From Actinomycetota bacterium (GTDB lineage Bacteria; Actinomycetota; Acidimicrobiia; Acidimicrobiales; Acidimicrobilacustridaceae), in contig SYBH01000160.1 in the NCBI GenBank assembly GCA_005787345.1, positions 1 through 44,722 on the forward strand: a DNA stretch of 44,722 bases. Reading direction: 5' to 3'. This document shows positions 4,324 through 30,510 of this stretch, in pieces. The translations under genes were made by a program, and so were the position numbers. Position 1 is the first letter of the stretch; each line of letters opens with the position of its first letter. Below the pieces are notes generated by a model that had not been told where the DNA came from, did not search any database, and was given only the letters and a program-made list of their open reading frames with translations.

Positions 4324-5835
4324 TCAGCGCAGTAGTGAGAACAATGTGATGTGGTCAGTGAAGTGCGTAAGCGCTCCAGGGAAGACACCCCACACAAGGG
4401 TGACGGCCACGGTGATGATGAGGGCGAACGACAGCGATGCCGGCACCTTGATCGGAGTGCGGTCGCCGTCGGGAGCTTCGTCCATCCACATCACGCGGAT
4501 AAGGCGACCGTAGTAACCAAATGCGATCACCGAGTTGAGGCCCACAATGACGGCGAGCACATAACCCGACGCGGTTCCGGCCGAAGCCAACGAACTGAAG
4601 ATTGACAGTTTGGCGAACCAACCAGCTGCCGGCGGAATACCCGCAAGCGAAAATAAGAAGATCGTCATGCACACCGTGAGGGCCGGGGCGTAGGAGAACA
4701 GACCGCCGAAACTCTTAATCTCACCTGAGCGCGTCTTACGGGCAACGGCCAGCACGACAGCAAATGCACCGAGGTTCATGCCTGCGTAGATGAGTAGGTA
4801 GACAACGATTGACCGGAGTGCTTCGCTTCCTGTGCCGAGAGTGGCTCCTGCAACCGCGAGCGGAGCGAGGATGTAGCCAGCCTGGGCGATACCGGAGTAG
4901 GCCAGCATGCGCACGACATTGGTCTGCCGAAGGGCAATGAGATTGCCAACTGTCATGGAAAGCGCGGCGAGCGCCCACATGAGCGGTTCCCAAACATCGT
5001 GACGACCGTAGAAACCAATGAAGAGAACGTTGAGGATGGCGACGAAGCCAGCAGCCTTTGAAGCAACTGCGAGGAACGACGTAACCGGGGTAGGCGCACC
5101 TTCGTAGGTATCGGGCGCCCACTGATGGAACGGCACCGCAGACACCTTGAAGGCAAAGCCGATAAGCACGAAAGCGATTCCCAGCGTGATGATCGGCTGC
5201 GAAGAAACGTAGGAGCCAAGTTCGGCCCCGATGTCAACGAGCAGGGTCGAACCAGTGATGCCGAAGATGAGCGACATGCCGTACAGCAGAATCGCTGAAG
5301 CGAAAACGCCCATGAGGTAGTACTTGAGGCCTGCTTCGTTGCTGTTCTGATCGCGCTTTCGCCATGCCGCCAACATGTAGGCCGGAATGGAAACAAGCTC
5401 AAGAGCAATGAAGATGCTGATGAGATCACGGGCAGACGCCATGACCACCATGCCAAGTACCGATGAAAGCAAGAGCGTGTAGTACTCGCCTTCGTGGTAA
5501 TCGCCTTCCGCGATGTAATTGGTCGAAAGCAGAATCACGACGTAGCCGGCAACAAGAAAAAGCGCTTTCAGAACGAGCGCGTAATTGTCGACAACAAAGC
5601 CGCCGCCAAACATGGCTCGATCAACACCGTCGTAGGCAAGGGTGGCGATCGGAATCAGAGCCAGAAGCAGACCAATTCCAGCAATCGACGATGACGCCCA
5701 GCGTGAGCGCTCACCGGTGAACACGTCGACGAGAATCAACACCACGATGGTCGCGGCCACGATGATTTCGGGCGCGAGGGCGTGGTAGTCGAGGCTGGGA
5801 GCGGTCCAGGCGAATGTCAACAACTGGGCGAGCAA
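4324..5835 (-). CDS. nuoN2: NADH-quinone oxidoreductase subunit N, second complex I
   Basis: 503 residues, polytopic antiporter-like proton-pumping subunit of the membrane arm. It has the typical NuoN run SIFIALELVSIPAYMLAAW with the conserved TM5 Glu, a lysine-bearing GLKYYLMG segment, and VSAVPFHQWAPDTYEGAPTPVT. The start is TTG at 5833-5835, supported by GGAGG eight bases upstream; it follows the nuoM2 stop by 4 bases. Length is normal for NuoN. About 40% of residues look different from NuoN1, so this is a diverged paralogue and not a recent copy. It is the last Nuo subunit of the 11-gene set. Confidence 0.95.
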   Translation of the reverse strand: MLAQLLTFAWTAPSLDYHALAPEIIVAATIVVLILVDVFTGERSRWASSSIAGIGLLLALIPIATLAYDGVDRAMFGGGFVVDNYALVLKALFLVAGYVVILLSTNYIAEGDYHEGEYYTLLLSSVLGMVVMASARDLISIFIALELVSIPAYMLAAWRKRDQNSNEAGLKYYLMGVFASAILLYGMSLIFGITGSTLLVDIGAELGSYVSSQPIITLGIAFVLIGFAFKVSAVPFHQWAPDTYEGAPTPVTSFLAVASKAAGFVAILNVLFIGFYGRHDVWEPLMWALAALSMTVGNLIALRQTNVVRMLAYSGIAQAGYILAPLAVAGATLGTGSEALRSIVVYLLIYAGMNLGAFAVVLAVARKTRSGEIKSFGGLFSYAPALTVCMTIFLFSLAGIPPAAGWFAKLSIFSSLASAGTASGYVLAVIVGLNSVIAFGYYGRLIRVMWMDEAPDGDRTPIKVPASLSFALIITVAVTLVWGVFPGALTHFTDHITLFSLLR

Positions 5836-5839
5836 CGGA

Positions 5840-7399
5840 TCAGCCTCCGAGCCCGTTCACGATCGAGATCGTGCGAGAAACAGCACCATCAGTGACCTTG
5901 AAGATGATGTTGGGAACAAAGCCGAGCACGACGATGAGTATGAGGATCGGGGTCCACGCCAACCATTCGCTAAACGTGACGTCGTGCAGATGCGGATCCT
6001 CTTCGAATTCCTTCGACGGAACACCGAAGCCCACACGCTGATACATCCAGAGCAAGTAGGCCGCAGACAAGACCGTTCCTATGGCGGCGATCACCATGAG
6101 TACACGGAAGAACGCAACGTTGAGGCCAAGACCTGGTTCGTATGCCGCCAAAATCGCCGGGAATTCGCCCCAGAAGCCAGCAAGGCCGGGAAGGCCCAGC
6201 GAAGCCATGACCGAGAAGCCCAGGATCCAGCCCATACGCGGCATCGACTTGAGCATGCCGCCCAGTCGAGAGATATCGAGGGTGTGGTAGCGGTCTTTCG
6301 CGGAACCAGCCACAAAGAAGAGCATGCCGGTAATAAGACCGTGGGCAACCATGCCGAAGATCGCAGCTTGGAAACCGAAGGTTGTGAGTGTGGCGATGCC
6401 AAGCATCACAAAACCCATGTGCGACACCGACGAGAACGCAATGAGTCGTTTCATGTCGGTCTGCGCCAAACAGCACAATGCGCCGTAGATGATGCCGATG
6501 ACGGCAAGCAATCCGATGAACGGTGCCCACTTTTCGGCTGCGCCTGGGAGGATCGGGATGGCGATGCGGATGAAACCGTAGGTACCGAGTTTCAGAAGCA
6601 CCGCAGCCAGAATGACCGAGCCAACGGTTGGTGCCTGTGTGTGGGCATCGGGCAACCACGTGTGGAACGGGAACATCGGGACCTTGATACCGAAGCCGAT
6701 GAACATGCCACCGAAGATCCAGAGGGCTGCACCAGTGGAAATGCCTGTGGCGAGTTCCGGAAGGAGACGCACATCGAATGAATGCATCATCTGGCCGTCG
6801 ACCGAGACCTTGTCGGAGAGGAAATACAACGCAAGGAAGGCAACGATCATCAGTGCCGAACCAAAAAGCGTGTACAGGAAGAACTTGAGCGATGCGTACT
6901 GACGCTTTTCGCCACCCCATACGCCGATCATGAAATACATCGGCAGAAGCACAACCTCGAAGAAGACGAAGAACAGGATGAGATCCTGCGCAACGAACGA
7001 ACCGAGCATGCCGGTTTCGAGGATGAGAATGAGGATGAGGAACGCCTTGGGGTTCTTCGGCTCCGGAAAACGGTTCCAGGAATAGATGATGCACAGCGGC
7101 ACGATTAACAGCGTGAGAGCAATCATCGGCAGAGAAATGCCATCGATACCCACGATGTAGCGACTGTTGATGATCGGGATCCATGCCATATCGACTACGA
7201 ACTGCAGGCGACCGCTCGCGTCGTAGTCAAAGTTGGTCATGAGCAAGATGCCGATGAACCCAACCACGAGGCTGGCCGCAAGAGCGACAACCTTATGGAA
7301 CTGCTCTTTGGCTTTGGGCACGACCAACATGGCGAGTGCTCCCACGAGGGGGAGGAACACCATAAGGCTGATACCCCAACTGTTCAGGAAATCTTTCAT
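5840..7399 (-). CDS. nuoM2: NADH-quinone oxidoreductase subunit M, second complex I
   Basis: 519 residues, antiporter-like membrane subunit of about 14 TM helices. Signatures include the TM5 Glu in FFEVVLLPMYFMIGVWGG, the KFFLYTLFGSALM lysine segment, KVPMFPFHTWLPDAHTQAPT, and LIAFSSVSHMGFVMLG. ATG start at 7397-7399, 17 bases after the nuoL2 stop. Contributes a proton channel to the membrane arm of the NuoEFG-less complex. No unusual insertions seen. Confidence 0.95.
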   Translation of the reverse strand: MKDFLNSWGISLMVFLPLVGALAMLVVPKAKEQFHKVVALAASLVVGFIGILLMTNFDYDASGRLQFVVDMAWIPIINSRYIVGIDGISLPMIALTLLIVPLCIIYSWNRFPEPKNPKAFLILILILETGMLGSFVAQDLILFFVFFEVVLLPMYFMIGVWGGEKRQYASLKFFLYTLFGSALMIVAFLALYFLSDKVSVDGQMMHSFDVRLLPELATGISTGAALWIFGGMFIGFGIKVPMFPFHTWLPDAHTQAPTVGSVILAAVLLKLGTYGFIRIAIPILPGAAEKWAPFIGLLAVIGIIYGALCCLAQTDMKRLIAFSSVSHMGFVMLGIATLTTFGFQAAIFGMVAHGLITGMLFFVAGSAKDRYHTLDISRLGGMLKSMPRMGWILGFSVMASLGLPGLAGFWGEFPAILAAYEPGLGLNVAFFRVLMVIAAIGTVLSAAYLLWMYQRVGFGVPSKEFEEDPHLHDVTFSEWLAWTPILILIVVLGFVPNIIFKVTDGAVSRTISIVNGLGG

Positions 7400-7416: not shown

Positions 7417-9597
7417 CTAGACGACGAACACGAGTACACCGGCGAGGACTACCGCGCCGGCAAAGAGGATCGAGGCGTACTGCTGGACCTTGCCGGTCTG
7501 GATCTTCCGAAGCAGTTGACCTGCTCCTTCAGAACCCTGACCAGATCCGTTGACTGCTCCATCGATGATGATCTGGTCAGCAACGGCATAGACGACGCCA
7601 GCAATTTTGCGGGCGCCATTGCCAATGCCGTTCACGGCACCATCGATGATGTTTTGGTTAGACCAGTTCGCAGCGCGGGCAAGCGGACCCGTTGTGCTTC
7701 CGGCGATAACGCCTGTGTAGAGATTGTCGAGGTAGTACTTATTCTCGAGGAACGTGTAACCAGCGTGTGCGATCTTGCTCCGCGAAGTCAGGCCATGCGG
7801 GCCGCGGTTCTTCTCGTAGTACTGGTAGGCGACAAACAAACCACCAGCCGCAAGAATCGTCGACGCAATCGCCAACCACGGAGTGAACGGAGCATGAGCA
7901 ATCGGCGGGAATGCAAATGTGGGTTCAACAAAATGCTCGAACCTCGTCGTGAAGCTCCCGGGCAATTTGAAACCGAAGAACGACTTGGGAAAGTTCGTGA
8001 AGCCCAACACAACAGCGCATCCGGCAAGGATGATGAGCGGAACCGTGATGACCCTCGGTGACTCGTGAGGATGGGCATGACCGCGGTATTTGCCCCAGAA
8101 GGTCATCCAGTAGGCGCGACCCATGTATGCGGCTGTAAGAAACGCCGTAATCAGACCAAAGATCAACATGATCGTGTACGCGTTCTCTTGGCCGTTCGCA
8201 GAGCCAGCGAGAATTTCATCTTTCGACCAGAATCCCGCCAGGGGGAAGATACCGGCGAGCGCGAGTGTCGCAATCAGGAAGGTCGCATGCGTGACTGGCA
8301 TCTTCTTGCGGAGACCACCCATTTCGCGCATATCGAAGGTGTGATGACACGCGTGGGCCACCGAACCGGCGCCAAGGAACAAACACGCCTTGAAGAACGC
8401 GTGAGTGAAGAGATGGAACACACCAGCGGTCCATGCACCAACCCCCAAAGCCATGACCATGTACCCGAGCTGCGAAATCGTCGAGTACGCCAACACCTTC
8501 TTGAGATCGGTCTGAACGAATGCGAGCAAACCACCAATGATTGTGGTGAACCCGCCAATGAAGGCCACATAATGGAATGTGCTGCTTCCGATAGCTAGGC
8601 CAGAGAAGAACACGCCATAAAGGCGAGCGATCAGATACACACCCGCAACAACCATGGTTGCTGCGTGAATAAGTGCCGACACCGGAGTTGGTCCTGCCAT
8701 GGCATCAGGCAACCACGTATGCAACGGAAACTGGCCCGACTTCGATGTGACGCCGCCAAAGAGACACAACGCGCCGACAAGAAGCAGCGTGGTGTTCGCG
8801 TTTCCTGACAACGCGTATTCATTGAGGTGAAGAACGTTGAAGCTGCTGCCCCCAGCCGCAAAGAACGTAATGATCACACCGAGAATGAGGCCGATATCGC
8901 CTACACGGTTTGTGAGGAACGCCTTGAGTGCTGCATCGGTGTTCTTCTTCTCTTCCCACCAATGGCCGATGAGTCCAAATGAACAGACTCCAACTAGCTC
9001 CCAGCCCATCAGCATCTGCAGCGTGTTCGAACTGAGCACGTAGAAGAGCATCGATGCAGTGAACAAAGACAAAAACGCGTAGTAATGCGTAAAGCGCACA
9101 TCGCCGCGCAAGTACTCGGTTGAGTAAATATGCACGAGCAAAGAAATAATGCAGACGGTGATCAGCATCATGGCGGCGAGGCCGTCAACAAGCGTGCCCA
9201 TCTCGAATTGCAAGCCACCGATCTGGAACCAAGTGACCGTGCGCACAACCGGCGGGACGCTTTCGTCCGATGCGCCATAGGAGTCAGTCGCAACTGTTTC
9301 GCCGGAATCCTTTGTGGCAGCGTTGACCTCTTCGCTAATGGTTTGGCCCGTCTGAGGGGTGAGGCCATTCGCTTGTACGATCTCGGCCGCAAGTGCAGTC
9401 CCCGTCGGCGGGTTATTGACGCGATTGATCCAGTTGCCGGCAACGACGACCGAAAGGATGAGGCAAATTGATACTGAGGCGATACCAATGCCTGCAGTCA
9501 CTTTGGTACCCCAACGCTTACCAAAGAAAAGGATGACCAGGAACGACACCGCCATGAGGGCGGGGATGATCCAGACCTTGTCGATCATGTTCAACAC
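7417..9597 (-). CDS. nuoL2: NADH-quinone oxidoreductase subunit L, second complex I, with extra loop and duplicated C-terminal motif
   Basis: 726 residues, longer than NuoL1 (668). Core signatures are clear: QMLMGWELVGVCSFGLIGHWW, KSGQFPLHTWLPDAMAGPTP, KKVLAYSTISQLGYM. Two additions stand out. First, a loop of about 45 residues near positions 60-115, rich in small and acidic residues, sits before the third TM segment. Second, the motif IIDGAVNG occurs twice, exactly 27 residues apart, near the C-terminal lateral helix; NuoL1 has one. The GTG at 9597 is chosen because GAAGGG lies 9 bases upstream; ATG at 9588 is the alternative. Acts as the distal proton pump with the long lateral helix. Confidence 0.94.
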   Translation of the reverse strand: MLNMIDKVWIIPALMAVSFLVILFFGKRWGTKVTAGIGIASVSICLILSVVVAGNWINRVNNPPTGTALAAEIVQANGLTPQTGQTISEEVNAATKDSGETVATDSYGASDESVPPVVRTVTWFQIGGLQFEMGTLVDGLAAMMLITVCIISLLVHIYSTEYLRGDVRFTHYYAFLSLFTASMLFYVLSSNTLQMLMGWELVGVCSFGLIGHWWEEKKNTDAALKAFLTNRVGDIGLILGVIITFFAAGGSSFNVLHLNEYALSGNANTTLLLVGALCLFGGVTSKSGQFPLHTWLPDAMAGPTPVSALIHAATMVVAGVYLIARLYGVFFSGLAIGSSTFHYVAFIGGFTTIIGGLLAFVQTDLKKVLAYSTISQLGYMVMALGVGAWTAGVFHLFTHAFFKACLFLGAGSVAHACHHTFDMREMGGLRKKMPVTHATFLIATLALAGIFPLAGFWSKDEILAGSANGQENAYTIMLIFGLITAFLTAAYMGRAYWMTFWGKYRGHAHPHESPRVITVPLIILAGCAVVLGFTNFPKSFFGFKLPGSFTTRFEHFVEPTFAFPPIAHAPFTPWLAIASTILAAGGLFVAYQYYEKNRGPHGLTSRSKIAHAGYTFLENKYYLDNLYTGVIAGSTTGPLARAANWSNQNIIDGAVNGIGNGARKIAGVVYAVADQIIIDGAVNGSGQGSEGAGQLLRKIQTGKVQQYASILFAGAVVLAGVLVFVV

Positions 9598-9602
9598 AAC
9601 GA

Positions 9603-9917
9603 TCAGCCCTTCAGCATGTCGACATCATCGATGTTGATGCTCTGTCGGTTCCGATAGATGAGTAAGACAAGTGCGAGGCCAACGCCAACCTCGGCAGCCG
9701 CAACGGCGATAACGAAGAGGGCGAACACCTGACCAGAAACGTTGGCCAAGTCATTGACATGCCAGTAGGCGCCGAAAGCGACAAGGTTGATGTTCACCGC
9801 ATTGAGAATGAGTTCAATCGACATGAGAACGAGCACGCCGTTCTTGCGAGCGAGCACTCCATAGACGCCGATACAGAAAAGAATGGCGGCGAGAAGGAGG
9901 AACTGATTGAGAAACAT
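9603..9917 (-). CDS. nuoK2: NADH-quinone oxidoreductase subunit K, second complex I
   Basis: 104 residues, three TM helices, related to MrpC. The conserved membrane glutamates are in LMSIELILNAVNINLV and AAAEVGVGLALVLL. The ATG at 9915-9917 overlaps the nuoJ2 stop by one base, indicating translational coupling. Length is typical for the family (about 100). Confidence 0.95.
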   Translation of the reverse strand: MFLNQFLLLAAILFCIGVYGVLARKNGVLVLMSIELILNAVNINLVAFGAYWHVNDLANVSGQVFALFVIAVAAAEVGVGLALVLLIYRNRQSINIDDVDMLKG

Positions 9918-10426
9918 CAGTCACGCCTCGCAATCACAATGGCGCCGATAAGCGCAGCGAGCAGAAGCACTGACAGCACCTCGAAGGGAAGGAGGTAGGT
10001 GGAGAAAATGGAATCGCTTACCTCGGCGGTTCGCTGCACCATCAGGTCACCGAACTCGGTGTCGCCGAAACCGTCGATGAGCGAGTAACCCATGAGGCCG
10101 AGTAGCGCTATCCCGATGCCTGCACCAATGAACTTCGCAGACTTCTTGTTATCGAGGTCATCATCGTTACCGGTTTTGGCTCGGGTAAGCATGATGCCGA
10201 ACAGAAACAGCACGATGATTGCGCCGAGATAGACGAGTACCTGCGTGATGGCGACAAATTCCGCGGCGAGAAGGATGTACTGGGCCGCAGCACCAGAAAG
10301 CACGAGTACCAACCACAACGCAGCATGCATGACGTTCTTTGTTGTCACTACACGGATCGCACCTACCACCATCAACGCAGCAATAATGTAGAACGCGATA
10401 TTTTGAGCGACAAGCAGGGCGAGCAT
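9917..10426 (-). CDS. nuoJ2: NADH-quinone oxidoreductase subunit J, second complex I
   Basis: 169 residues, about five TM helices. NuoJ features seen are NVMHAALWLVLVLSGAAAQYILL, followed by FVAITQVLVYLGAIIVLFLFGIML, the TM3 region with the pi-bulge of the E-channel. It is shorter than NuoJ1 (200) because the C-terminal tail is missing. Overlaps the nuoI2 stop by one base. Confidence 0.94.
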   Translation of the reverse strand: MLALLVAQNIAFYIIAALMVVGAIRVVTTKNVMHAALWLVLVLSGAAAQYILLAAEFVAITQVLVYLGAIIVLFLFGIMLTRAKTGNDDDLDNKKSAKFIGAGIGIALLGLMGYSLIDGFGDTEFGDLMVQRTAEVSDSIFSTYLLPFEVLSVLLLAALIGAIVIARRD

Positions 10427-10935
10427 CAGCGCGGCACCTTCTTGACTTTGGCATCGGCGCCAGACTCGTAGGGCTCAAAATCAGGGACAGTCTGCATCCA
10501 CTGATCGAGACGACTCTTGTCGTGAAGGAGATCAGCAATGCGGACCTCGGAGTACTCATACTCAGGGCTCCAGAAAAGCGCATCGAATGGACAAACCTCA
10601 ACGCAAATGCCGCAGTACATGCACAACGAGAAATCGATATCAAAGCGATCAAGTTCGTTCTTCTGGCGCGGCTTGCCACCTTCGCGACGAGGCGGTGCGA
10701 GGTACTTGTGCGCTTCGATGAAGATGCACCAATCGGGGCATTCACGAGCACACAACATGCACGACGTGCAGTTCTCTTCGTGCAGCGCAATGACACCACG
10801 GGCACGCGGAGAAACTTCCTCACGCTCGTGCGGATAGCGCGTGGTCTGCGGACCGTCCTTGAGGGTCTTCACCATCTCGCCGAACGTGACGCCAAGACCC
10901 TTAATGAGTCCGGGAACCTTGGGCTTGGGGGGCAT
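10426..10935 (-). CDS. nuoI2: NADH-quinone oxidoreductase subunit I (2x[4Fe-4S]), second complex I
   Basis: 169 residues. Two complete [4Fe-4S] motifs: C56, C59, C62, C66 ([12 protein letters not shown]) and C105, C108, C111, C115 ([12 protein letters not shown]), giving clusters N6a and N6b. These carry electrons toward N2 in NuoB2. It ends after a short tail, unlike NuoI1 with its His-rich extension. In a complex without NuoEFG, NuoI is the usual docking point for the electron-input partner (ferredoxin in the cyanobacterial and chloroplast NDH). Overlaps the nuoH2 stop by one base. Confidence 0.95.
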
Positions 10936-11972
10936 CAGAGCACCACCTTAAACACAGCAGTGACGACAATATTCAAAAGAGCCAACGGGATGAGGACCTT
11001 CCAGGCAAGGCTCTGGAGCTGATCTTCACGGAATCGTGGGTAGGTAAACCGCACCCAGAAGATGATGAAGGCAACCACCATCACCTTGGCGAACAACACG
11101 ATCGGACCAAGCACGTAGTACCAGTCGCTCGACGTGGGAAGCCACGGTACTGCCCAACCGCCCAGGAACAACACCGCAGCAATCGCAGCAAATGCGAAGG
11201 CCGTTGCGAATTCGGCCAAGAAGAAGATGAGGAAACGGAAGCCGGTGTATTCGACCTGATAACCGGAAACGATTTCCGATTCCGCAACCGGCATATCGAA
11301 CGGGGGCTGAGTGAGTTCGGCTTGCACCGCTGCGATGAAGATGAAAAAGCCCACAAACTGCGTGAGGATGTAGGGAAAGCCGATGCCGCCCCATCCGAAG
11401 ATTGAGCCGTCGGCTTGTGCGAAGACAATGCCGTTCAGACTCATTGTTCCGGCCTGAATGATCACGCCGACGACAGCGAGCACCATCGGGAGTTCGTATG
11501 CAATGAGCTGACCGGCGGCGCGAAGCGCTCCCATGAGCGAGTACTTGTTCGCCGACGCCCAACCTGCCATGAGTACACCGATCACCGAAAGCGATGAAAC
11601 GGCAAGCACGAAAAACACACCAACGTCGAGGTCAGCGACAACAAGACGCATTGACGTCGGAAGCGCAACATAGAGAAGCAGCGTCGACATGAGCACCACA
11701 AGAGGCGCGACCTTGAAAACCCAACGATCGGCACCATTCGGCGAGATGTCTTCCTTCTGAAGGAACTTCACACCGTCCGCAAGAAGCTGCAACGTTCCGC
11801 GCGGGCCTGCTTCTTGCGGACCAAGACGGCTCTGCATCCAGGACATGATCTTGAACAAGAAGACCATGCCGAGAATGAGTGCCGTGGTGGGCACAACCGC
11901 ACTGACAACAACGACCTTGATGAGGGTCGAAAGCCAATACGGCGGATCAAAAGCAGCGAGAAGAAGTGTCAT
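10935..11972 (-). CDS. nuoH2: NADH-quinone oxidoreductase subunit H, second complex I
   Basis: 345 residues, eight-helix subunit that forms the quinone chamber with NuoB and NuoD. Shows [25 protein letters not shown] and the conserved acidic loop [23 protein letters not shown]. The ATG overlaps the nuoD2 stop by 4 bases (ATGA). Loop and length are normal, so the quinone site has its H-side residues even though NuoD2 carries a substitution. Confidence 0.95.
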
Positions 11973-20093: not shown

Positions 20094-20402
20094 CTATCCC
20101 CTCAGTGTCCGAAGGTCATCGGCGGTAGCGCCGGGACGGCGACGTGCCATCGCCACGATGAGGGCCAAGCCCACGACAACTTCGGCAGCGGCGACAACCA
20201 TCACGAAGAAGACGATGATCTGACCAGAGATGTCATCAAGCATCTTTCCGAATGTCACGAACGAAAGGTTCACGGCGTTGAGCATGAGTTCGACGCACAT
20301 GATCATGACGAGTGGATTGCGGCGGATGAGAACGCCGACGCCACCGATCACAAAAAGGATCGCCGAGAGCATCAGGTACGCGAGTGAGAGGTTTGAGCTC
20401 AT
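20094..20402 (-). CDS. nuoK: NADH-quinone oxidoreductase subunit K, 14-subunit complex I
   Basis: 102 residues, three TM helices. Conserved glutamates appear in [16 protein letters not shown] and [18 protein letters not shown] at 20400-20402 overlaps the nuoJ stop by one base. Typical family length. Confidence 0.95.
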
Positions 20403-21762: not shown

Positions 21763-22976
21763 CAGTCAACCACCCCTTCGAGTCGGCGAGCTTTCGAGGT
21801 TGCAATCGCTGCCTTGAGAAGTCCGTAGCCAGTAAGGCCTACGACAACACCGATTGCAACAGTAATGAACCCGTTCCAGTTCTGATCACGCGCAACCCAG
21901 AACGTGGCGAGAAGGAGAATCCATCCGAGTGAAAGCGGAATGAGCACCTTCCAGCCAAGGTCCATGAGTTGGTCATAGCGAACACGAGGAACCGTGCTGC
22001 GCACCCAAACGAACAAGAAGAGGAACCCAGTCATCTTGAGGAGGAACCAGATGACTCCCCACAGCCAACCTGGGCCAAGAAGCGCAGGACCGGCGGGGCC
22101 ACCCAAGAAGAGGGTGACGATGATGGCAGCCATGGTTACGGAGTTCATGAACTCGGCAACAAAGAAGAGTGCAAAACGAATAGATGAATACTCGGTGTGA
22201 TAGCTGCCGACGAGTTCCTGTTCCGCTTCAACAAGGTCGAATGGCGGACGATTGAGTTCCGCTTGGCTTGCAAGCAAGAAGACCACGAACGGCACAAACC
22301 CTGTGGCAATGAGATTCCAATTGGGGATGAAGCCGCCCAAACCGCTACCGGCCTGCGCCATCACGATGCCGTGCGTACTAAGCGTCCCCGTCGTGAGCAC
22401 AACCGCACACACCGAAAGCCCGAGTGCCGCTTCATAAGAGACCATCTGTGCCGAAGCGCGAACAGAACCAATGAGCGGATACTTCGAGCCTGATGACCAA
22501 CCAGCAAGCATGACGCCGTAAACCGCAATTGATGACATAGCAAGAGCAAAAAGGATGCCGATCGCGGGATCGGCGAGTTGCAGATAGGTCGTACGCCCAA
22601 AGATCTCGACCGATCCATCGTGACCATTACTGAAATCGCCGCCGAATGGAACGATGGTGAAAAGCAAGAACGCTGGTACCACGGTGAGCAGTGGCGCCAA
22701 AATAAAGACCCGACGCTCGGCCCTGTCGGGGATGAGATCTTCTTTAAAGAAGAACTTGATGCCGTCGGCGAGTGTCTGAAGGATGCCGAAGGGGCCTGCA
22801 GTGTTGGGGCCTACTCGATTCTGGAAATCGCTAACAACCTTGCGTTCGAACCAGATCATCAACATGGTCGCCACCAAAAGGAATGCGAACACGCATACGA
22901 CTTTCAGGATGACGATAAGCACAACAGCAAGATCGATTTGACCAGAGAGAAGCGGATCACCACCGAGCATGTTCAT
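21762..22976 (-). CDS. nuoH: NADH-quinone oxidoreductase subunit H, 14-subunit complex I
   Basis: 404 residues, longer than NuoH2 (345) because of an extra C-terminal TM helix and basic tail (VAIGVVVGLTGYGLL and on). Quinone-chamber loop NRPPFDLVEAEQELVGSYHTEYSS is present, as is FQNRVGPNTAGPFGILQTLADGIKFF. ATG at 22974-22976 overlaps the nuoG stop by 4 bases. Confidence 0.95.
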   Translation of the reverse strand: MNMLGGDPLLSGQIDLAVVLIVILKVVCVFAFLLVATMLMIWFERKVVSDFQNRVGPNTAGPFGILQTLADGIKFFFKEDLIPDRAERRVFILAPLLTVVPAFLLFTIVPFGGDFSNGHDGSVEIFGRTTYLQLADPAIGILFALAMSSIAVYGVMLAGWSSGSKYPLIGSVRASAQMVSYEAALGLSVCAVVLTTGTLSTHGIVMAQAGSGLGGFIPNWNLIATGFVPFVVFLLASQAELNRPPFDLVEAEQELVGSYHTEYSSIRFALFFVAEFMNSVTMAAIIVTLFLGGPAGPALLGPGWLWGVIWFLLKMTGFLFLFVWVRSTVPRVRYDQLMDLGWKVLIPLSLGWILLLATFWVARDQNWNGFITVAIGVVVGLTGYGLLKAAIATSKARRLEGVVD

Positions 22977-25645
22977 GATGCGGTCTCGATCCTGACTTCG
23001 GCGACGAGTTCATCGGTAGACACAAGGTCGCTCACACGCCCATCGGCCTGATTCACAATCATCGCAGCAACACCACGAGGAACGCCCGGATCAGATTGCA
23101 CGGTGACGTTCACCGACGCCTTTGCCGTACGAACGATCGCGCGTCCACCGGAGGCGACACCGAGGCGATCAAACTCCCACGGATTCAACGAAACGATCGA
23201 CCCGGCAGCGAGCGGCGCAAGCGAGGGTGCCGACTGCACAAGCGTGCCCTGGTCGTACAGCTTTCGAGATGCGACAAGACGGAAGCCGTAGGAATCGACG
23301 GGTGGAGACACAACGGCCTCGATCGGCATGAACTGAACGAAGGGAGGCATGGAGCCAGCAACGTCGGAGTCGTCGGAGATGATCTCGATCAGACCTTCGA
23401 CGTCGTCATCGGTTTCTTCAACAACAACGTCGGCGGTGACGTCGACCTCGGCGCCATCTTCGGACACCGTCACGGTTTCGTCAATGATCACAATGTCATC
23501 GTCTTCTTCATCGATGATGACAACAACATCGAGCGGAAGCAGGATGCCATCGGGCGAACCCTCGGCGATTGCCTGATCAAGAGCCAGGTACGCAGGAGCT
23601 ACTGCGGAAATCTCAGCGAGGACATCACCGAAACTTTCGAAACCAAGATCGGTGCCAAGTCGGCTCGAAACCTCGGCGGCGAGCATCCAGTCGGCACGCG
23701 AGGTTCCCGGCGGAGTTACGCGGTGTGAAAGCGTGCTGACGCGGCCCTCGATGTTCGTGGTTGTGCCTGACTTTTCGGCAAAGCCTGCAGCAGCAAGTAC
23801 AACGTCGGCGCGCTTACTTGAAGAATTGAGTGCCGTATCGACCGCGAGCACCGTGCGTGCACCAGTGAGACCACGTTCAGCAAGATCAGCATCGGGGAAG
23901 TCAGAAAGTGGATCGGCGCCCAAAAGAACAAGGACATCGATGCGGCCGTCGGCAGCTGCTCGCAGGATGCCTTCTGTATCGAGACCGGTTGCACTTGGCA
24001 TTGTCGGCCACACCTCGGCGTACCACTCGGCACCATCCTCGAGTGTGACGCGACCGGGAAGAAGTCCCGGAGCAAGGCCCATGTCGAGTGCGCCGCGCAC
24101 GTTTGAACGACGCAATGCCGAGAGGAACGTGGTGTCGGGACGTGCGTTGAGAATTGCAGAGGCTGCAGCGACCGTGATGCTTGCCGATTCGGCGAGCGAT
24201 GCACGACCGAGCACAACAGTGATCGGGCCGGCCGATGCAGAAAGAGCGGCACGAGCTTTTTCGAGTTCTTCAGCAGAAACACCGGCAATTTCACGATCGA
24301 TTGCTGCCAAGCCCATGAGCGCAGCGACGACATCGGCGGTTTCGCCTGGGCGAGGATGCACCGACGCAGCGGTAAGCGAAGAGATACCGCTCGAACGAGG
24401 TGAAACCTCGACGATGGTGACGCGATCTTCGACAACGGCGTGACGAAGACGGAGGAACAGAACGGGAAGTTCTTCCTTGACATCGGGACCGAGCAGCAAA
24501 ACGGTGCCGCCAGGAGCACAAACCTCGTCGATTGTTGCACTCGGAAGACCGAGAACCACGTGGGCAGGAAGTCCATCACCGAGTTGAGCGTCGACATTGT
24601 CGGTAGCAAGAACACCCTTGAACAGTTTCGACCATGCGTAGGCATCTTCGTTGGTGAGACGTGAACCACCGATGACGCCAATCGACTGCGCTGAAGATGC
24701 GTTGCCGAGCGCATTTGCGAAACGACCCAGTGCGTCGGACCACTTGGCCGAAACTAAGCCGGACCCGTCGCGAACCAGTGGCTCAGCAAGTCGCTCATCA
24801 GATGTCACGACCTCGCTGGAGAAACGGCCCTTATCGCAGAGCCAACCCCAGTTAACCGGATCGATATCGACACCTGCGAAACGTTGGACCTGATCGCGAG
24901 AGGAGTCGATAGAGATACGACATCCGACCGAACAGGTCTGGCAGGTGGACTCGGTGGTCTCAAGATCCCACGGACGAGCTTTGAATCGATAGGTCGATGC
25001 GGTTAGTGCGCCAACTGGGCAGATCTGCACAGTGTTGCCACTGAAGTACGAAGCAAACGGTTCATCAGGGAATGTGTTGACTTCGGTGTTGTTCCCACGA
25101 TGAATGAAGTGAATAAGCGGATCGCCAGCAACTTCCTTTGCGAAACGTGTACAACGGTCGCAAAGGATGCAGCGTTCGCGATCGAGAAGCACAAGGTCGC
25201 TGATTGGAATCGGCTTTTCCTTGTGCCGCTTCTCTTCAACAAAGCGACTCTCACCGGGGCCGTAGGCCATGGTCTGATCCTGGAGCGGACATTCGCCGCC
25301 CTTGTCACAGACTGGACAGTCGAGAGGATGGTTCGCGAGGAGGAACTCGAGGATTCCGTCCTGTGCTTTCTTTGTGACTGCCGATTCAGTATCGGCCTTC
25401 ATGCCAGGAGTGCACTCGATCATGCAGCTGGGCTGAAGTGCTGGCCCACGGCCTGTGTCGACTTCGACCAAGCACATGCGGCACATACCAACCGGATTCA
25501 TTCGCTCGTGGTAACAGAACCGCGGAATGTAGGTGCCGATGCGTTCGGCGGCATCGATGAGCAGCTCGCCCTTACGGGCAATGACCTCAACGCCATTGAT
25601 TTCGACGGCGACGCCGTCAACGGGGGTCACCTCGGACTCAGCCAT
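22973..25645 (-). CDS. nuoG: NADH-quinone oxidoreductase subunit G, 14-subunit complex I, with acidic insertion
   Basis: 890 residues, 75-kDa-type Fe-S subunit. All cluster sites are readable: N1b C44, C55, C58, C74; N5 H106, C110, C113, C119; N4 C159, C162, C165, C209; and the additional N7 site C235, C238, C242, C270, which only some bacteria keep. A molybdopterin-oxidoreductase-like domain follows. At about residues 703-764 an acidic, Val/Ile-rich insertion (for example IIDEEDDDIVIIDE) interrupts the C-terminal region. ATG at 25643-25645 overlaps the nuoF stop by 8 bases. There is no counterpart in the second complex I. Confidence 0.96.
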   Translation of the reverse strand: MAESEVTPVDGVAVEINGVEVIARKGELLIDAAERIGTYIPRFCYHERMNPVGMCRMCLVEVDTGRGPALQPSCMIECTPGMKADTESAVTKKAQDGILEFLLANHPLDCPVCDKGGECPLQDQTMAYGPGESRFVEEKRHKEKPIPISDLVLLDRERCILCDRCTRFAKEVAGDPLIHFIHRGNNTEVNTFPDEPFASYFSGNTVQICPVGALTASTYRFKARPWDLETTESTCQTCSVGCRISIDSSRDQVQRFAGVDIDPVNWGWLCDKGRFSSEVVTSDERLAEPLVRDGSGLVSAKWSDALGRFANALGNASSAQSIGVIGGSRLTNEDAYAWSKLFKGVLATDNVDAQLGDGLPAHVVLGLPSATIDEVCAPGGTVLLLGPDVKEELPVLFLRLRHAVVEDRVTIVEVSPRSSGISSLTAASVHPRPGETADVVAALMGLAAIDREIAGVSAEELEKARAALSASAGPITVVLGRASLAESASITVAAASAILNARPDTTFLSALRRSNVRGALDMGLAPGLLPGRVTLEDGAEWYAEVWPTMPSATGLDTEGILRAAADGRIDVLVLLGADPLSDFPDADLAERGLTGARTVLAVDTALNSSSKRADVVLAAAGFAEKSGTTTNIEGRVSTLSHRVTPPGTSRADWMLAAEVSSRLGTDLGFESFGDVLAEISAVAPAYLALDQAIAEGSPDGILLPLDVVVIIDEEDDDIVIIDETVTVSEDGAEVDVTADVVVEETDDDVEGLIEIISDDSDVAGSMPPFVQFMPIEAVVSPPVDSYGFRLVASRKLYDQGTLVQSAPSLAPLAAGSIVSLNPWEFDRLGVASGGRAIVRTAKASVNVTVQSDPGVPRGVAAMIVNQADGRVSDLVSTDELVAEVRIETAS

Positions 25646-26981
25646 GCGAGGACGCCTTCGTGATGGTCACGGGAATTGAGTGACGAGCCTCTTCGGCCTG
25701 CGTAATACGCGCCTCGAACTCGGGGCGGAAACGCTGCAGGGCCGATGCGATCGGCGACACTGCTGACGGACCAAGAGGGCAAATCGTTGTCTGCTTCGGG
25801 GGCCATGCGATTCCTGGGGAAATGTTGTCGGAAACGTCGAGGAGCAGTTCAAGATCACTGGGACGGCCATATCCGTCTTGGATTCGCTGCAAGATGTTTT
25901 CCAACCAAGTCGTGCCTTCACGACACGGGGTGCACTTGCCACAAGATTCACGGGCGAAGAACCGAACAATTCGCAGACACGCTTTGACTGCATCGGTGGT
26001 CTCGTCCATGACGACAACTGCGCCAGAACCAAGCATTGAGCCGGCGCGATCGACAGTGACTTTTTCAAGCGGAAGGTCGAGGTGCTCTTCAAAGAACCAC
26101 GGAGCCGATGCGCCACCAGGGATATACGCCTTGAGCGCACGATCGCCGAGAATGCCACCCGCGTACTGGGGGGCGTAAATGAGATCGCGGAAGGTGGTGA
26201 CGCCGTATTCGACCTCAAACACACCTGGGTTCTTGACGTGACCAGAGACTGCGAACATGCGCGTACCGCGCGATGTTTCCGCACCCAGCGCAGCAAAAGC
26301 TTCGCCGCCATTCGTGACGATCCAAGGCAGATTCGAAAGTGTCTCGACGTTATTCACGATTGTGGGCTGCATGTACAAGCCCTTAGCCGCCGGGAAGTAC
26401 GGAGGCTTAAGACGCGGCATACCGCGATTGCCTTCAAGACTTTCGATGAGTGCAGTTTCTTCGCCCACGATGTAGGCGCCAGCACCCCATGAAAGAACGA
26501 CATCGACAGAGAAGTCAGAACCAAGGATGTTCTTGCCGACATAACCGGCGGCATAGGCGTCGTTCAGGGCTGCAGCGATGCGCTCTTGAGCAAGCGGCAT
26601 TTCGCCACGCACATACAGGAATGCTTGGCCGCATCCGATTGCGTAACACGCGAGCAGAACACCTTCGATGAGTTGATGAGGATCACGCTCCATAAGGAGA
26701 CGGTCCTTATAGGTGCCCGGTTCGGACTCGTCGCCGTTGACAACGAGATAACGCGGCCACACGTTTACGGGAGCAAGACCCCACTTCACCCCTGCGGGGA
26801 AACCTGCTCCACCACGACCAAGAAGGGTTGCGGTCTTTACCTCGTCGGCCACAGCGGTCGGGCCCATCGAGAGCGCTTTGCGCAATGCCTGATAGCCACC
26901 GGTGGCTTCATACCCGGCAAGCATGAAGCTGTCGGCATTATCGAAACGTGAAGTAATGATGCGGGGAGCATCGGTAATCAC
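25638..26981 (-). CDS. nuoF: NADH-quinone oxidoreductase subunit F (NADH/FMN-binding)
   Basis: 447 residues. GRGGAGFPAG at residues 55-64 is the NADH/FMN-binding loop. The N3 [4Fe-4S] ligands are C347, C350, C353 (SCGKCTPCREGT) and C401 (TICPLG). This is the NADH-oxidising subunit; the window holds only one copy, so only one of the two complex I sets has its own NADH input. Start GTG at 26979-26981, overlapping the nuoE stop by 4 bases. Confidence 0.96.
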   Translation of the reverse strand: MITDAPRIITSRFDNADSFMLAGYEATGGYQALRKALSMGPTAVADEVKTATLLGRGGAGFPAGVKWGLAPVNVWPRYLVVNGDESEPGTYKDRLLMERDPHQLIEGVLLACYAIGCGQAFLYVRGEMPLAQERIAAALNDAYAAGYVGKNILGSDFSVDVVLSWGAGAYIVGEETALIESLEGNRGMPRLKPPYFPAAKGLYMQPTIVNNVETLSNLPWIVTNGGEAFAALGAETSRGTRMFAVSGHVKNPGVFEVEYGVTTFRDLIYAPQYAGGILGDRALKAYIPGGASAPWFFEEHLDLPLEKVTVDRAGSMLGSGAVVVMDETTDAVKACLRIVRFFARESCGKCTPCREGTTWLENILQRIQDGYGRPSDLELLLDVSDNISPGIAWPPKQTTICPLGPSAVSPIASALQRFRPEFEARITQAEEARHSIPVTITKASSHG

Positions 26982-27592
26982 TTGACGCCCTCCCCCGCTG
27001 CTGCGACCCAGACTGGTGCGGTCTTGTCTTCGGGAGTCACGACACCAGCGCGTCGGTCCTCGGGAATGTGCTGACGAACTTCAGCCAGCACTCCGTGGGA
27101 CGGAATATCAGAGCGGCGGCCAGCGCGAAGGTCATTCACAAGTTGATCGAATCCTTCATTCGAGATGCGATGCTCGTAGCGATAGTTCACCTGCAGGCAC
27201 GGGGCCTCGGTGCACGCAGCGATGCATTCGACATCTTCAAGAGTGAAAAGGCCATCGGAGGTTGTTTGTCCCGGGCGAATACCGAGTGTCTTTTCGGCAT
27301 GAGCAAGGAGTTCCTCGCCGCCACGAAGCTGACAAGAAATGTTGGTGCAGATGTTCACCATGTAACGGCCAACGGGTTCCATCTTGAACATCTCGTAGAA
27401 CGATGCGGTTCCGAGAACTTCTGCTGATGAAACACCAACAAGTTCGCCGATATGGGCCATTGCCTCGTCGGTGAGATGACCGTCTTGCTCCTGCGCGAGA
27501 TGTAGCAAAGGAATGAGCGCCGACTTCGGACGCGGGTAGTTTCCGATGATCTCGCGGGCGAGTTCAACGTTGTCATTCGAAAGACGAGCCAT
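26978..27592 (-). CDS. nuoE: NADH-quinone oxidoreductase subunit E ([2Fe-2S])
   Basis: 204 residues with an N-terminal helical domain and a thioredoxin-like fold holding cluster N1a: C82 and C87 (CTNISC), C123 and C127 (CIAAC). The ATG at 27590-27592 is used because it overlaps the nuoD stop (shared T at 27592) and begins at the family N-terminus. The open frame continues upstream into nuoD without similarity. A C-terminal extension of about 45 residues follows the core. Confidence 0.95.
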   Translation of the reverse strand: MARLSNDNVELAREIIGNYPRPKSALIPLLHLAQEQDGHLTDEAMAHIGELVGVSSAEVLGTASFYEMFKMEPVGRYMVNICTNISCQLRGGEELLAHAEKTLGIRPGQTTSDGLFTLEDVECIAACTEAPCLQVNYRYEHRISNEGFDQLVNDLRAGRRSDIPSHGVLAEVRQHIPEDRRAGVVTPEDKTAPVWVAAAGEGVK

Positions 27593-28926
27593 CAGCGGTC
27601 GACCTCCCCGAGGATGGGATCGACGCTTGAGATGATGGCGACAGCGTCGGCCACGAGACTGCCGTGCATGAGATGCGGAAGGCTCTGCAAATTCACAAAA
27701 CTTGGGGCACGGACGTGCATGCGGTACGGCTTCGAAGAACCATCGCTCACGATGTAGCAGCCAAGTTCGCCTCGAGGAGATTCGATCGAGACATAGGCCT
27801 CGCCCTCGGGAACCTTGAAACCTTCGGTGAAGATCTTGAAGTGGTGAATGAGAGCTTCCATGGACTCGTCGATGCGCGCACGCGGTGGTGGCGTCACTTT
27901 CTTGTCTTGGATGCGATAATCGCCCTTCGGCATTTTCTCGAGGCACTGACGAACGATCTTCATTGACTCGTGAATTTCAGCGAGACGAATTGCGTATCGG
28001 TCGAAACAGTCACCGTACGAACCAACGACGACGTCGAAGTCAATCTGGTCGAACGCGAGATACGGCATGTCGCGTCGAAGGTCCCAGTCGTAACCCGTTG
28101 ATCGGAGAATCGGGCCGGTGACGCCAAGCGCAAGACATTCTTCGGCTGTGATGGCTCCGACGCCTTGAAGTCGCTCACGAAAAATCGGTTGCTGATTCAA
28201 CAAGGTGTCGTATTCGGCAAGCCGACCAGGGAGCATGTCGAGAAGACGCAGAACGCTGTCTCGCCATCCGTCGGGAAGATCGGCAGCAACACCGCCGGGA
28301 CGGATGTAGTTGTGGTTCATGCGGAGGCCAGTGACTTCCTGAAGGAAGCGAAGCGCCTCTTCACGTTCACGCCATCCGTAAAGCATCATCGACACTGCAC
28401 CAAGGTCCATGCCGTTGGTGGCCATAAAGAGCAAGTGGGAAGAGATGCGATTCATCTCGGTCATGAGCATGCGGATCCAGATCGCACGTTCAGGAACCTC
28501 AATATCGAGCAACTTTTCGACAGTGAGCGAGAAGGCAAGTTCGGTGAACAACGGCGCTGCGTAATCCATGCGCGTCACGTTGGTGGGGCCCTGCAAGTAG
28601 GTGAGTTCTTCGCCCGTGCGTTCCATGCCGGTGTGGAGATAACCGATAATCGGCTTACAACGAAGAACGGTCTCGCCCTGAAGTTCAAGCATGAGACGCA
28701 ACACGCCGTGTGTCGATGGATGCTGCGGACCCATGTTGATGATCATGGTTTCGTCGTCGGGAACCTGTTCACGCTCTGCGGCGAGCGCGTCGTTCTCGGA
28801 CAATCGAAGAACCGCGCCAAGTTCGCGAAGACGTTCGCCGGCTGCGACAACATCGGCTGAAGTCATTTCCTGACCCCCTCCGGAGGTCTGATTCACATTC
28901 GTGGGAAGTTCGTGAGTTGCGGTCAT
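27592..28926 (-). CDS. nuoD: NADH-quinone oxidoreductase subunit D, 14-subunit complex I
   Basis: 444 residues from the ATG at 28924-28926, 4 bases after the nuoC stop. About 60 N-terminal residues precede the core. GPQHPSTHG (66-74) carries the quinone-site H73, and TRMDY (118-122) carries both the N2-adjacent R119, the arginine methylated by NDUFAF7 in mitochondria, and the quinone-site Y122. Later RMNHNYIRPGGVAADLP and YDWDLRRDMPY are typical. All catalytic positions look standard, in contrast to NuoD2. Confidence 0.96.
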   Translation of the reverse strand: MTATHELPTNVNQTSGGGQEMTSADVVAAGERLRELGAVLRLSENDALAAEREQVPDDETMIINMGPQHPSTHGVLRLMLELQGETVLRCKPIIGYLHTGMERTGEELTYLQGPTNVTRMDYAAPLFTELAFSLTVEKLLDIEVPERAIWIRMLMTEMNRISSHLLFMATNGMDLGAVSMMLYGWREREEALRFLQEVTGLRMNHNYIRPGGVAADLPDGWRDSVLRLLDMLPGRLAEYDTLLNQQPIFRERLQGVGAITAEECLALGVTGPILRSTGYDWDLRRDMPYLAFDQIDFDVVVGSYGDCFDRYAIRLAEIHESMKIVRQCLEKMPKGDYRIQDKKVTPPPRARIDESMEALIHHFKIFTEGFKVPEGEAYVSIESPRGELGCYIVSDGSSKPYRMHVRAPSFVNLQSLPHLMHGSLVADAVAIISSVDPILGEVDR

Positions 28927-28930
28927 GAGA

Positions 28931-29461
28931 TCAACGATTCGCGGGAGCACCCTTGAACTGCACTGGAATACGACCAGAGTCGTAGTCCTTGCGCAGTGGG
29001 TGTCCGATCCAGTCCTCGGGCATGAGGATGCGGGTGAGATCAGGGTGGCCTTCGAACGCAATACCAAACATGTCGAAGGTTTCGCGCTCCATCGCCTCGG
29101 TGCCGGGATAGAGATTGAACGCGCTCGGAAACACTGCGTCGGTCTCGGGTACCTGTACTCGCAAACGAAGACGAGCGCGTTCGCGATGGTTAATGAGGTT
29201 GACGACAACTTCGAACCGCTCGGGTTCTATGCCGGCGGGAAGCTGACGCGAATCGTTGGTGAGGTAGTCAACACCACAAAGATCGATTACGGAGTGGTAC
29301 CCAGCGGCATGCAGTGTCGCGAGCAGCGCGGAATAGGTTTCGCGAGTTGGATGCACTACAAGCTGCCCGTGAGAACGAGTGAGCAACGTATCGAAAAGTG
29401 TTTCGGGTGCGATCTCAGCTGGGGTGTCAGCCTCGCCACCTTGGGCGTCGATGTCGGTCAT
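28931..29461 (-). CDS. nuoC: NADH-quinone oxidoreductase subunit C, 14-subunit complex I
   Basis: 176 residues. Core: YHSVIDLCGVDYLT, FEVVVNLINH, EAMERETFDMFGIAFEGHPDLTRILMPEDWIGHPLRKDY. ATG at 29459-29461, 2 bases after the nuoB stop. Peripheral-arm subunit that packs against NuoD and NuoI. Confidence 0.95.
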   Translation of the reverse strand: MTDIDAQGGEADTPAEIAPETLFDTLLTRSHGQLVVHPTRETYSALLATLHAAGYHSVIDLCGVDYLTNDSRQLPAGIEPERFEVVVNLINHRERARLRLRVQVPETDAVFPSAFNLYPGTEAMERETFDMFGIAFEGHPDLTRILMPEDWIGHPLRKDYDSGRIPVQFKGAPANR

Positions 29462-29463
29462 GT

Positions 29464-30051
29464 TCAGCCCTGACCCAGGGTGACAGGCACAGGACCAGAA
29501 GGACCCATCTGTTCAACAATCAGACCAGCACCCTCACCATCGCGGCGAGTGAGTTCGCCATTTTTGATCTTGTCGTGAAGGGTCAAAATTGCGTGCATCA
29601 GTGTTTCCGGTGATGGCGGGCAACCCGGTGCATACACATCGACGGGAACAATCTGATCAACACCCTGCACGATGGCGTAGTTATTGAACATGCCTCCGGA
29701 AGATGCGCAAACGCCCATCGAGATAACCCATTTGGGTTCCATCATCTGGTCGTAGATCTGACGAAGCACCGGTGCCATCTTTTGCGACACGCGACCAGCA
29801 ACGATCATGAGATCGGCCTGACGCGGCGAAGCGCGAAACGTTTCCATGCCGTAACGAGCAAGGTCGTAGTGCGGTCCACCTGCAGCCATCATTTCGAGCG
29901 CGCAACAAGCAAGACCGAACGTGGCGGGCATGACGCTGTGGCGACGGGCCCACTTGACAAGCTCCTCGAGCGTGCCAGTGAAAAAATTGTGGCTGAGTCC
30001 TTCAAGGCCGGACTCAAGGAGTCCGCCGGTGGGCCTGGTCTCGCTTGACAC
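29464..30051 (-). CDS. nuoB: NADH-quinone oxidoreductase subunit B, 14-subunit complex I
   Basis: 195 residues. N2 cluster ligands are C49-C50 ([10 protein letters not shown]), C115 (GVCASSGG) and C144 (PGCPPSPE). Start GTG at 30049-30051, directly adjoining the nuoA stop. A C-terminal extension of about 35 residues ([13 protein letters not shown] and on) is present and absent from NuoB2. Confidence 0.95.
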
Positions 30052-30510
30052 TTATGCAGCCTCTCCAGTGGAACGGCCTTCGAGGCCGACGCGACGGATG
30101 GTGCTCGTCGCTGTACGGGCAGGCGAAACGGCCTCAGAACGACGAAGCCGCTTAACCGGGCCCCAATCAAGGGCACCGTTGCCGATGAGGTAGACGAACG
30201 ACTCGAATACCGCAGCAGTAAAAATGAGGATCGCTGCAATTCCATACCAACCGAGCGAACGGAACACAACAGCGAAGGGGAACAGGAAAATGATTTCAAT
30301 GTCGAACACGATGAAGATCATGGCGACGAGAAAGAATTTCACCGGGAAGCGATCCGGCGGTCCCTCATCGGGAACGATGCCGCATTCGTAGGGAGACGAC
30401 TTGGCTTCAGATGGTCGACGGGGGGCGAGAAGCTGCGAAACGACGCGGCTCACTGCGGCGAAGATGATCGCCAGCACAAGCATTGCGAAGATTGGCAGAT
30501 ACTGCCCCAC
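30052..30510 (-). CDS. nuoA: NADH-quinone oxidoreductase subunit A, 14-subunit complex I
   Basis: 152 residues. The SSPYECGIVP loop with its conserved Cys and FLVAMIFIVFDIEIIFLFPFA identify NuoA. A basic C-terminal tail of about 30 residues makes it longer than NuoA2. Start GTG at 30508-30510, 5 bases after the stop of the upstream membrane protein. There is therefore no room for a separate promoter: complex I follows the cytochrome bc genes in the same transcription unit. Confidence 0.94.
   Translation of the reverse strand: MGQYLPIFAMLVLAIIFAAVSRVVSQLLAPRRPSEAKSSPYECGIVPDEGPPDRFPVKFFLVAMIFIVFDIEIIFLFPFAVVFRSLGWYGIAAILIFTAAVFESFVYLIGNGALDWGPVKRLRRSEAVSPARTATSTIRRVGLEGRSTGEAA

Follow-up and report, generated by a model that had tools for sequence, protein, structure and literature searches.

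The subject of this report is a 44,722-nucleotide stretch of DNA (the window; GenBank assembly GCA_005787345.1, contig SYBH01000160.1) from an Actinomycetota bacterium of the order Acidimicrobiales, in which a complete 14-gene complex I set, nuoA-N (set 1), is followed directly by an 11-gene set without nuoE, nuoF and nuoG (set 2). We propose, with a probability of roughly 0.6, that the second complex is a proton-pumping quinone reductase which is supplied with electrons by a soluble carrier of low potential, either F420H2 or ferredoxin, and which has a rebuilt quinone site. This reading rests on gene content, on intact iron-sulphur (Fe-S) ligands and channel residues, on a phylogeny separate from that of set 1 (with doubts that are set out below), on residue changes in NuoD2, and on linkage to a gene for a MidA-type methyltransferase. 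New here are a Trp in NuoD2 at the position of the quinone-headgroup Tyr, the opposite states of the switch at Fe-S cluster N2 in the two sets, the MidA linkage, and the occurrence of genomes with NuoD2 and without NuoD1 or NuoF.

Gene Content and Integrity of the Two Sets

The window is one whole contig of a metagenome-assembled genome that is 82% complete. Both nuo sets lie on the minus strand, set 1 at 30510-14742 and set 2 at 14667-4324, and all 25 genes are open, each being matched by curated models among the window proteins. The spacing between nuoN1 and nuoA2 is 74 bp, within set 2 neighbouring genes are spaced by -10 to +61 bp (with the nuoC2 start not settled), and across both sets the spacing is operon-like. 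Paralogous subunits share 28-47% identity, so that the description given in an earlier sequence-only reading of this DNA, two complete and diverged sets with E, F and G missing from the second, was borne out. In the 82% of the genome at hand there are two NuoD and one NuoF (PF01512), the latter being nuoF1 of set 1. The genes of set 2 with the adjoining methyltransferase gene, those of set 1, and the region ahead of them are as follows.

14293..14667, minus: nuoA2, 74 bp past nuoN1 (curated model)
13802..14302, minus: nuoB2, AGT (mitochondrial type), N2 cysteines intact (curated model, motif)
13141..13740, minus: nuoC2, start codon uncertain, open frame reaching 13932 (curated model)
11969..13144, minus: nuoD2, HRG (Arg69), Trp92 at the quinone-Tyr position, Gln at the Asp139 position (curated model, alignment)
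10935..11972, minus: nuoH2 (curated model, solved-chain alignment)
10426..10935, minus: nuoI2, two 4Fe-4S motifs, where electrons presumably enter (curated model, motif)
9917..10426, minus: nuoJ2 (curated model)
9603..9917, minus: nuoK2 (curated model)
7417..9597, minus: nuoL2, 726 amino acids (curated model, solved-chain alignment)
5840..7399, minus: nuoM2 (curated model, solved-chain alignment)
4324..5835, minus: nuoN2 (curated model, solved-chain alignment)
3217..4317, minus: MidA/NDUFAF7-type methyltransferase (PF02636), 6 bp past nuoN2 (profile match)
30052..30510, minus: nuoA1 (NCBIfam NuoA models)
29464..30051, minus: nuoB1, AGR with the Arg of the Thermus-type N2 switch (curated model, motif)
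28931..29461, minus: nuoC1 (curated model)
27592..28866, minus: nuoD1, Thr (HTG) at the N2 switch, Tyr at the quinone site (curated model, alignment)
26978..27592, minus: nuoE1 (curated model)
25638..26981, minus: nuoF1, sole PF01512 match of the genome (curated model)
22973..25645, minus: nuoG1 (curated model)
21762..22976, minus: nuoH1 (curated model)
21007..21762, minus: nuoI1 (curated model)
20402..21004, minus: nuoJ1 (curated model)
20094..20402, minus: nuoK1 (curated model)
18082..20088, minus: nuoL1 (curated model)
16430..18082, minus: nuoM1 (curated model)
14742..16433, minus: nuoN1 (curated model)
30516-36096, minus: quinol-cytochrome region directly before nuoA1, with matches to N- and C-terminal parts of cytochrome b in two frames, Rieske protein and cytochrome c

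The Fe-S ligands of set 2 are intact in NuoI2 (two CxxCxxCxxxCP motifs) and in NuoB2 (CC, SMGSC and PGCP), and the channel Glu and Lys residues of NuoL2, NuoM2 and NuoN2 align with solved chains, as does the acidic loop of NuoH2. Among solved chains, NDH-1 is closest by sequence to NuoL2, NuoN2 and NuoH2, chain 8qby_M, presumably from Paracoccus, to NuoM2, and Thermus Nqo4, followed by NdhH, to NuoD2. NuoL2 has about 50 residues more ahead of its conserved core than the solved chain 7z7r_L, and the AlphaFold model of NuoD2 has a mean predicted local distance difference test score of 84. With its frames open and these residues in place, set 2 is not a decaying copy, in agreement with the sequence-only reading. 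The companion claim, that the Fe-S ligands and antiporter Glu residues of set 2 are intact, holds as well. The quinone-site Tyr of NuoD, to which that claim did not extend, is a Trp in set 2; not every catalytic residue of set 2 is thus conserved.

Quinone Site and N2 Switch

The Tyr that binds the quinone headgroup is Y87 in Thermus, Y108 in the ovine enzyme and Y144 in Yarrowia (passages of PMC8119997 and PMC7434922). At this position we found Trp in 108/108 NuoD2, and Tyr in 25/25 NuoD1 and in 40/40 other NuoD, Thermus and NdhH included, where the 40 are the nearest relatives found and not a sample of all NuoD. The position of the partner residue, Asp139, is occupied by Glu or Gln in every one of the 108 NuoD2, by Asp or Glu in NuoD1, and by Asp (34), Asn (3) or Glu (3) in the others. 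At a 95% threshold only Trp92 and the nearby Met67 set NuoD2 apart, and the His of the quinone pocket is kept. The alignment thus points to a quinone pocket rebuilt with Trp in place of the headgroup Tyr and Glu or Gln in place of the paired Asp, around a retained His. One complex-1 nuoD, at locus L217 of the single-contig genome G038, appears to be split in two overlapping frames and was left out of this alignment.

The two sets also differ next to cluster N2. According to a passage of PMC8042128, complex I of T. thermophilus has Thr at the N2-adjacent Arg of NDUFS2, and an Arg of the NuoB subunit fills the same space. Set 1 carries this Thermus-type switch, HTG in NuoD1 together with GR in NuoB1, in the window and at 20/20 extra loci. 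Set 2 carries the mitochondrial type, with Arg in 108/108 NuoD2 and GT in 97/98 frames whose best hit was NuoB2 (other phyla included), the motif not being found in the remaining frame. Counted over all loci, Arg occurred with Trp 130 times, Thr with Tyr 26 times and Arg with Tyr 27 times, and there were three odd matches. The survey by best-hit labels that gave the 97/98 figure left 16 NuoD and three NuoB frames in which no motif was found, and a single match in NuoD was off target.

A different meaning of the Trp has to be considered. A 2020 paper (PMC7567858) remarks that the complex I genes of S. mobaraensis, which produces piericidin, encode a Trp at the position of Tyr108, and the Trp of NuoD2 could accordingly be self-resistance to actinobacterial quinone-site inhibitors such as piericidin, set 2 being an inhibitor-proof back-up. 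We consider this very unlikely, since all 108 NuoD2 sampled from the phylum have the Trp, those of Ca. Actinomarina among them, and inhibitor tolerance may be a by-product. Moreover, NuoD1 of the Streptomyces-like genus g76 keeps the Tyr, which suggests that the Trp of S. mobaraensis is the ordinary residue of NuoD2. Our limited search of the open-access literature found no report of a phylum-wide Trp in NuoD2. What speaks against a rebuilt but working site is that Yarrowia Tyr variants were hardly able to reduce Q9 (a passage of PMC7567858), so quinone reduction by the Trp enzyme is not certain.

The Linked Methyltransferase Gene

The gene past nuoN2 matches PF02636 with 99.1 bits, against a gathering score of 23.3. 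We take PF02636 to be the family of NDUFAF7 and MidA. NDUFAF7 methylates Arg85 of NDUFS2 (passage of PMC3829151); as in that pair, a PF02636 protein is linked here to a NuoD with the target Arg, and the putative target would be the NuoD of a second, 11-subunit complex. PF02636 is present in 68/100 genomes of the NuoD2 clade, compared to 12/196 others; in 47 of these 68 it shares a contig with nuoD2, and in 43 the two are at most 12 kb apart. For all genome counts of this kind, membership of the clade was set at E <=1.2e-107, a limit chosen from a 174-row tree and not from a tree of all 100, and the genome lists behind the methyltransferase, F420 ligase and PF01512 tallies were compiled by hand. 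Among 61 stretches around set 2, the MidA family was the widest neighbour cluster (22/61, frames of at least 110 residues).

The linkage persists where nuoD2 has left its cluster. In the Streptomyces-type genome G083, placed by the NuoD tree with named Streptomyces, genes A2, B2, C2 and H2-N2 form a cluster like set 2 (L195), and, unlike in the window, nuoD2 lies outside it, about 200 kb away and near a PF02636 gene. D-less clusters were read at L218, L222 and L224 as well. At named loci with such an orphan nuoD2 (Streptomyces, Actinomadura, Kitasatospora, Micromonospora and others), a MidA match was found within about 11 kb in 28/32, often at 1-2 kb. Streptomyces and Streptomyces-like loci with this arrangement include L080, L081, L099, L100 and L125. 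NuoB2 was found in 18/19 genomes with an orphan nuoD2 (the window's own excluded), while G204 gave only a NuoB1-like match. Since MidA stays near the orphan nuoD2, NuoD2 is pointed to as its target, and by analogy with NDUFAF7 it is most likely that the MidA-type enzyme dimethylates Arg69 of NuoD2. Three observations count against this. PF02636 is missing in 32/100 NuoD2-clade genomes and the Arg is kept in those sampled, which leaves the methylation of NuoD2 a hypothesis; E. coli carries the corresponding Arg unmethylated (passage of PMC8042128); and the co-occurrence figures given here are raw counts, uncorrected for relatedness. A limited search of open-access literature found no report of MidA beside a second nuo set.

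Ancestry and Distribution

In a 61-row NuoD tree (11/25 NuoD1, 20/108 NuoD2 and 30/40 others, hand-picked, L217 left out), the NuoD1 of the phylum group with Thermus Nqo4 (support 100/96) and then with 14-gene sets, and NuoD2 forms one clade (100/100) on a side made up mostly of 11-gene sets of Chloroflexota, Bacteroidota and Bacillota together with NdhH. Set 2 could nonetheless have arisen from set 1 by a tandem duplication, either recent or confined to the phylum, and be drifting, as its head-to-tail placement would allow. When NuoD1 and NuoD2 were forced into one clade with NuoD alone, the cost was 29.8 log units and the approximately unbiased (AU) test did not reject it (p 0.054); with NuoB, NuoD, NuoH and NuoK joined (45 rows, namely 5 NuoD1, 17 NuoD2 and 23 others, and 917 columns), the cost was 57.2 and the single clade was rejected (AU p 0.0055). 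The low identity of the paralogues, their opposite N2 switches and the phylum-wide extent of the NuoD2 clade also argue against duplication, and we regard it as hardly credible. The sets thus appear to be complexes I of separate ancestry, and the sequence-only reading, which a recent tandem duplication would have refuted, stands: that case is rejected on four joined subunits, though not on NuoD alone.

Besides that p value, three results detract from a clean separation. The NuoD2 side of the 61-row tree also contains sets with nuoF and nuoG, from family f53; in the joined tree the deep split is supported with 90/68; and a quicker 174-row NuoD tree, which included the broken L217, placed Thermus beside NuoD2 and not NuoD1 (support 87). 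The latter tree, in which the NuoD2 clade spans the phylum, was made from 188 rows after removal of exact duplicates, of loci L001-L024 and of any protein shorter than 330 residues. The f53 sets (L087, L088 and L098) have an odd gene order, with nuoF- and nuoG-like genes between nuoH and nuoJ and otherwise A-N.

An orthologue of NuoD2 (at least 73% identity) is present in 52/61 genomes of the order, the window's own included, and the NuoD2 clade in 100/296 genomes of the phylum. The closest named NuoD2 (94%) is from an Acidobacteria bacterium entry, followed by Ilumatobacter, Ilumatobacteraceae, Acidimicrobiaceae and Acidimicrobiales entries. Contig C498 of genome G196, from another family group (f44, 640 contigs), holds a NuoD2 80% identical to that of the window and is probably a stray contig. 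By a hand count that includes G031 with its cut NuoD1, NuoD1 and NuoD2 share a contig in 35/52 genomes, about 15-23 kb apart in 34 of the 35 and 31 kb apart in G042. The adjacency of the two sets, for which long reads had been named as a check, is no assembly artefact, since nuoN1 lies just before nuoA2 in the single-contig genomes G076 and G038 too. The tight tandem is not universal: at 45 loci with at least 4.5 kb visible before B2 (two of them, L077 and L196, being complex-1 loci included by error), the distance from the end of the N gene to B2 was at most 2.2 kb in 11, 2.2-6 kb in 10, and farther or out of view in 24. Nor can a 14-gene set with an 11-gene set behind it be called unusual, as it had been, given these frequencies and a published second nuo cluster without EFG in Ca. 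Actinomarinales, for which F420 was suggested (passages of PMC7771536). That cluster, like set 2, lacks EFG; according to the same passages, which mention neither the residue changes nor MidA, the two clusters are parted by a heliorhodopsin and iron genes, unlike in the window. One locus of Ca. Actinomarina, L120, falls in the NuoD2 clade, and its nuoN2 is followed by a weak match to MidA (23% identity).

Electron Input to Set 2

Without an NADH module of its own, set 2 might borrow NuoEFG from set 1, in which case one shared module would serve two alternative membrane arms and set 2 would be a further NADH dehydrogenase. The sets are contiguous and probably co-transcribed, the window's genome holds one NuoF, and 93/100 NuoD2-clade genomes hold a PF01512 gene, all of which would fit. 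However, four genomes have NuoD2 with neither a PF01512 match nor a NuoD1. Three of them, G159, G180 and G221, belong to a single genus and are 94-97% complete, and the fourth, G338, is 100% complete; the cluster of set 2 itself was read in all but G180, where NuoD2 alone was observed. Shared NuoEFG is therefore not required, and with NuoD2 placed among mostly 11-gene complexes in the NuoD tree we find borrowing improbable. Of the two sources named in the sequence-only reading, ferredoxin or borrowed NuoEFG, the first is thus retained; F420H2 was not considered there.

Reduced ferredoxin or flavodoxin could also feed set 2 directly, as happens in cyanobacterial NDH-1 and has been proposed for Desulfitobacterium. 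We see this as a serious possibility, if still well short of an even chance. It agrees with the closeness of NuoL2, NuoN2 and NuoH2 to NDH-1 among solved chains, with an intact NuoI2, with a published ferredoxin model for an 11-subunit enzyme (passage of PMC11238625), and with G338, which has set 2 and no F420 ligase match. Less favourable is that POR_N was found in only one of 21 genomes of the window's genus and not in the other 20, of which 19 have NuoD2; this makes 2-oxoacid:ferredoxin oxidoreductase an unlikely source of the ferredoxin. Nor did a conserved donor gene stand out beside set 2 among cluster representatives of the 61 stretches, a comparison of frames of at least 110 residues that small ferredoxins would escape and that included no search for ferredoxin genes.

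F420 ligase is found in the window's genome and in 94/100 NuoD2-clade genomes, compared to 77/196 others. Another contig of the same genome encodes an FrhB/FpoF-like protein (L194:5844-7079, minus strand) with weak N-terminal 4Fe-4S matches, which resembles FrhB of F420-reducing hydrogenase (E 3e-41); its gene adjoins genes of TIGR03843, TIGR03847 and the MSMEG_4193 family. The evidence on F420 is not one-sided. The protein falls short of the curated FrhB and FpoF cut-offs, and its family occurs in 58/61 genomes of the order. As all nine genomes that lack a NuoD2 orthologue are among these, the family is not specific to set 2. Six NuoD2-clade genomes, the complete G338 among them, lack F420 ligase, and a strict requirement for F420 is not supported. 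On this evidence F420H2, delivered via the FrhB/FpoF-like protein encoded elsewhere, is our tentative and slight favourite as donor, with direct docking of ferredoxin a near second.

Comparison with Known Systems and Other Features

Set 2 resembles known 11-subunit complexes I in its eleven genes, in the lack of EFG, and in its intact Fe-S ligands and channel residues. It differs from them by the Trp at the quinone Tyr, by Glu or Gln at the Asp139 position, by the attached MidA gene, and by its position after a cytochrome bc region and a complete 14-gene set. Cyanobacterial and plastid NDH-1 likewise has 11 core subunits and no NADH module and provides the nearest solved L, N and H chains, but its NdhH keeps the Tyr. 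With the F420H2 dehydrogenase Fpo/Fqo, set 2 shares an 11-type core and a possible F420 input, the FrhB/FpoF-like gene lying elsewhere; unlike Fpo, it has no fpoF in the cluster. The FpoD model reached 321 bits of its 600-bit cut-off, and none of the Fpo-type models scored over its cut-off with set-2 proteins.

The complex III genes and both complexes I form one block in the window. On the other side of the methyltransferase gene, at 1712-3177 on the minus strand, two overlapping frames together look like a secreted serine protease, with a GDSGG-like motif in the second and no Pfam match to either; this may be a frame break or two genes. An Rfam scan of the window gave no match at gathering score, and a tRNA scan found none.

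Implications

The mechanism that we propose can be put as follows. Complex 1 would be an ordinary NADH:quinone pump of the Thermus type, and complex 2 an 11-subunit core with a quinone module and a proton-pumping arm. If the set-2 proteins assemble into one complex, as their genes lead us to infer, electrons from the soluble carrier would enter at the clusters of NuoI2 and pass via N2 in NuoB2 to quinone, while NuoL2, NuoM2, NuoN2 and NuoH2 would pump protons. During assembly the MidA-type enzyme would dimethylate Arg69 of NuoD2 beside N2, as NDUFAF7 does with Arg85 of NDUFS2. That a complex I lineage throughout the phylum works with Trp in place of Tyr, is matured by the linked MidA and is fed by F420H2 or ferredoxin, all three together, we hold to be somewhat less than an even bet.

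The interest of the case lies in what appears to be an NADH-free second line of complex I, with a rebuilt quinone site, a linked methyltransferase and a putative function of its own. The headgroup Tyr is treated as conserved and essential in the mechanisms discussed for complex I (passages of PMC7434922, PMC8119997 and PMC7567858). A natural, widespread enzyme without it, beside a Tyr enzyme in the same cell, makes this essentiality directly testable, and if the present reading is true, quinone protonation in complex I would not need the Tyr, and the Trp of the piericidin producer would simply belong to its second complex and be no resistance change. The opposite N2 switches, with a methyltransferase linked to one set only, would allow the role of the modification to be compared within one organism. 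Finally, for a large phylum of bacteria, set 2 provides a concrete candidate for the respiratory outlet of F420H2 or ferredoxin.

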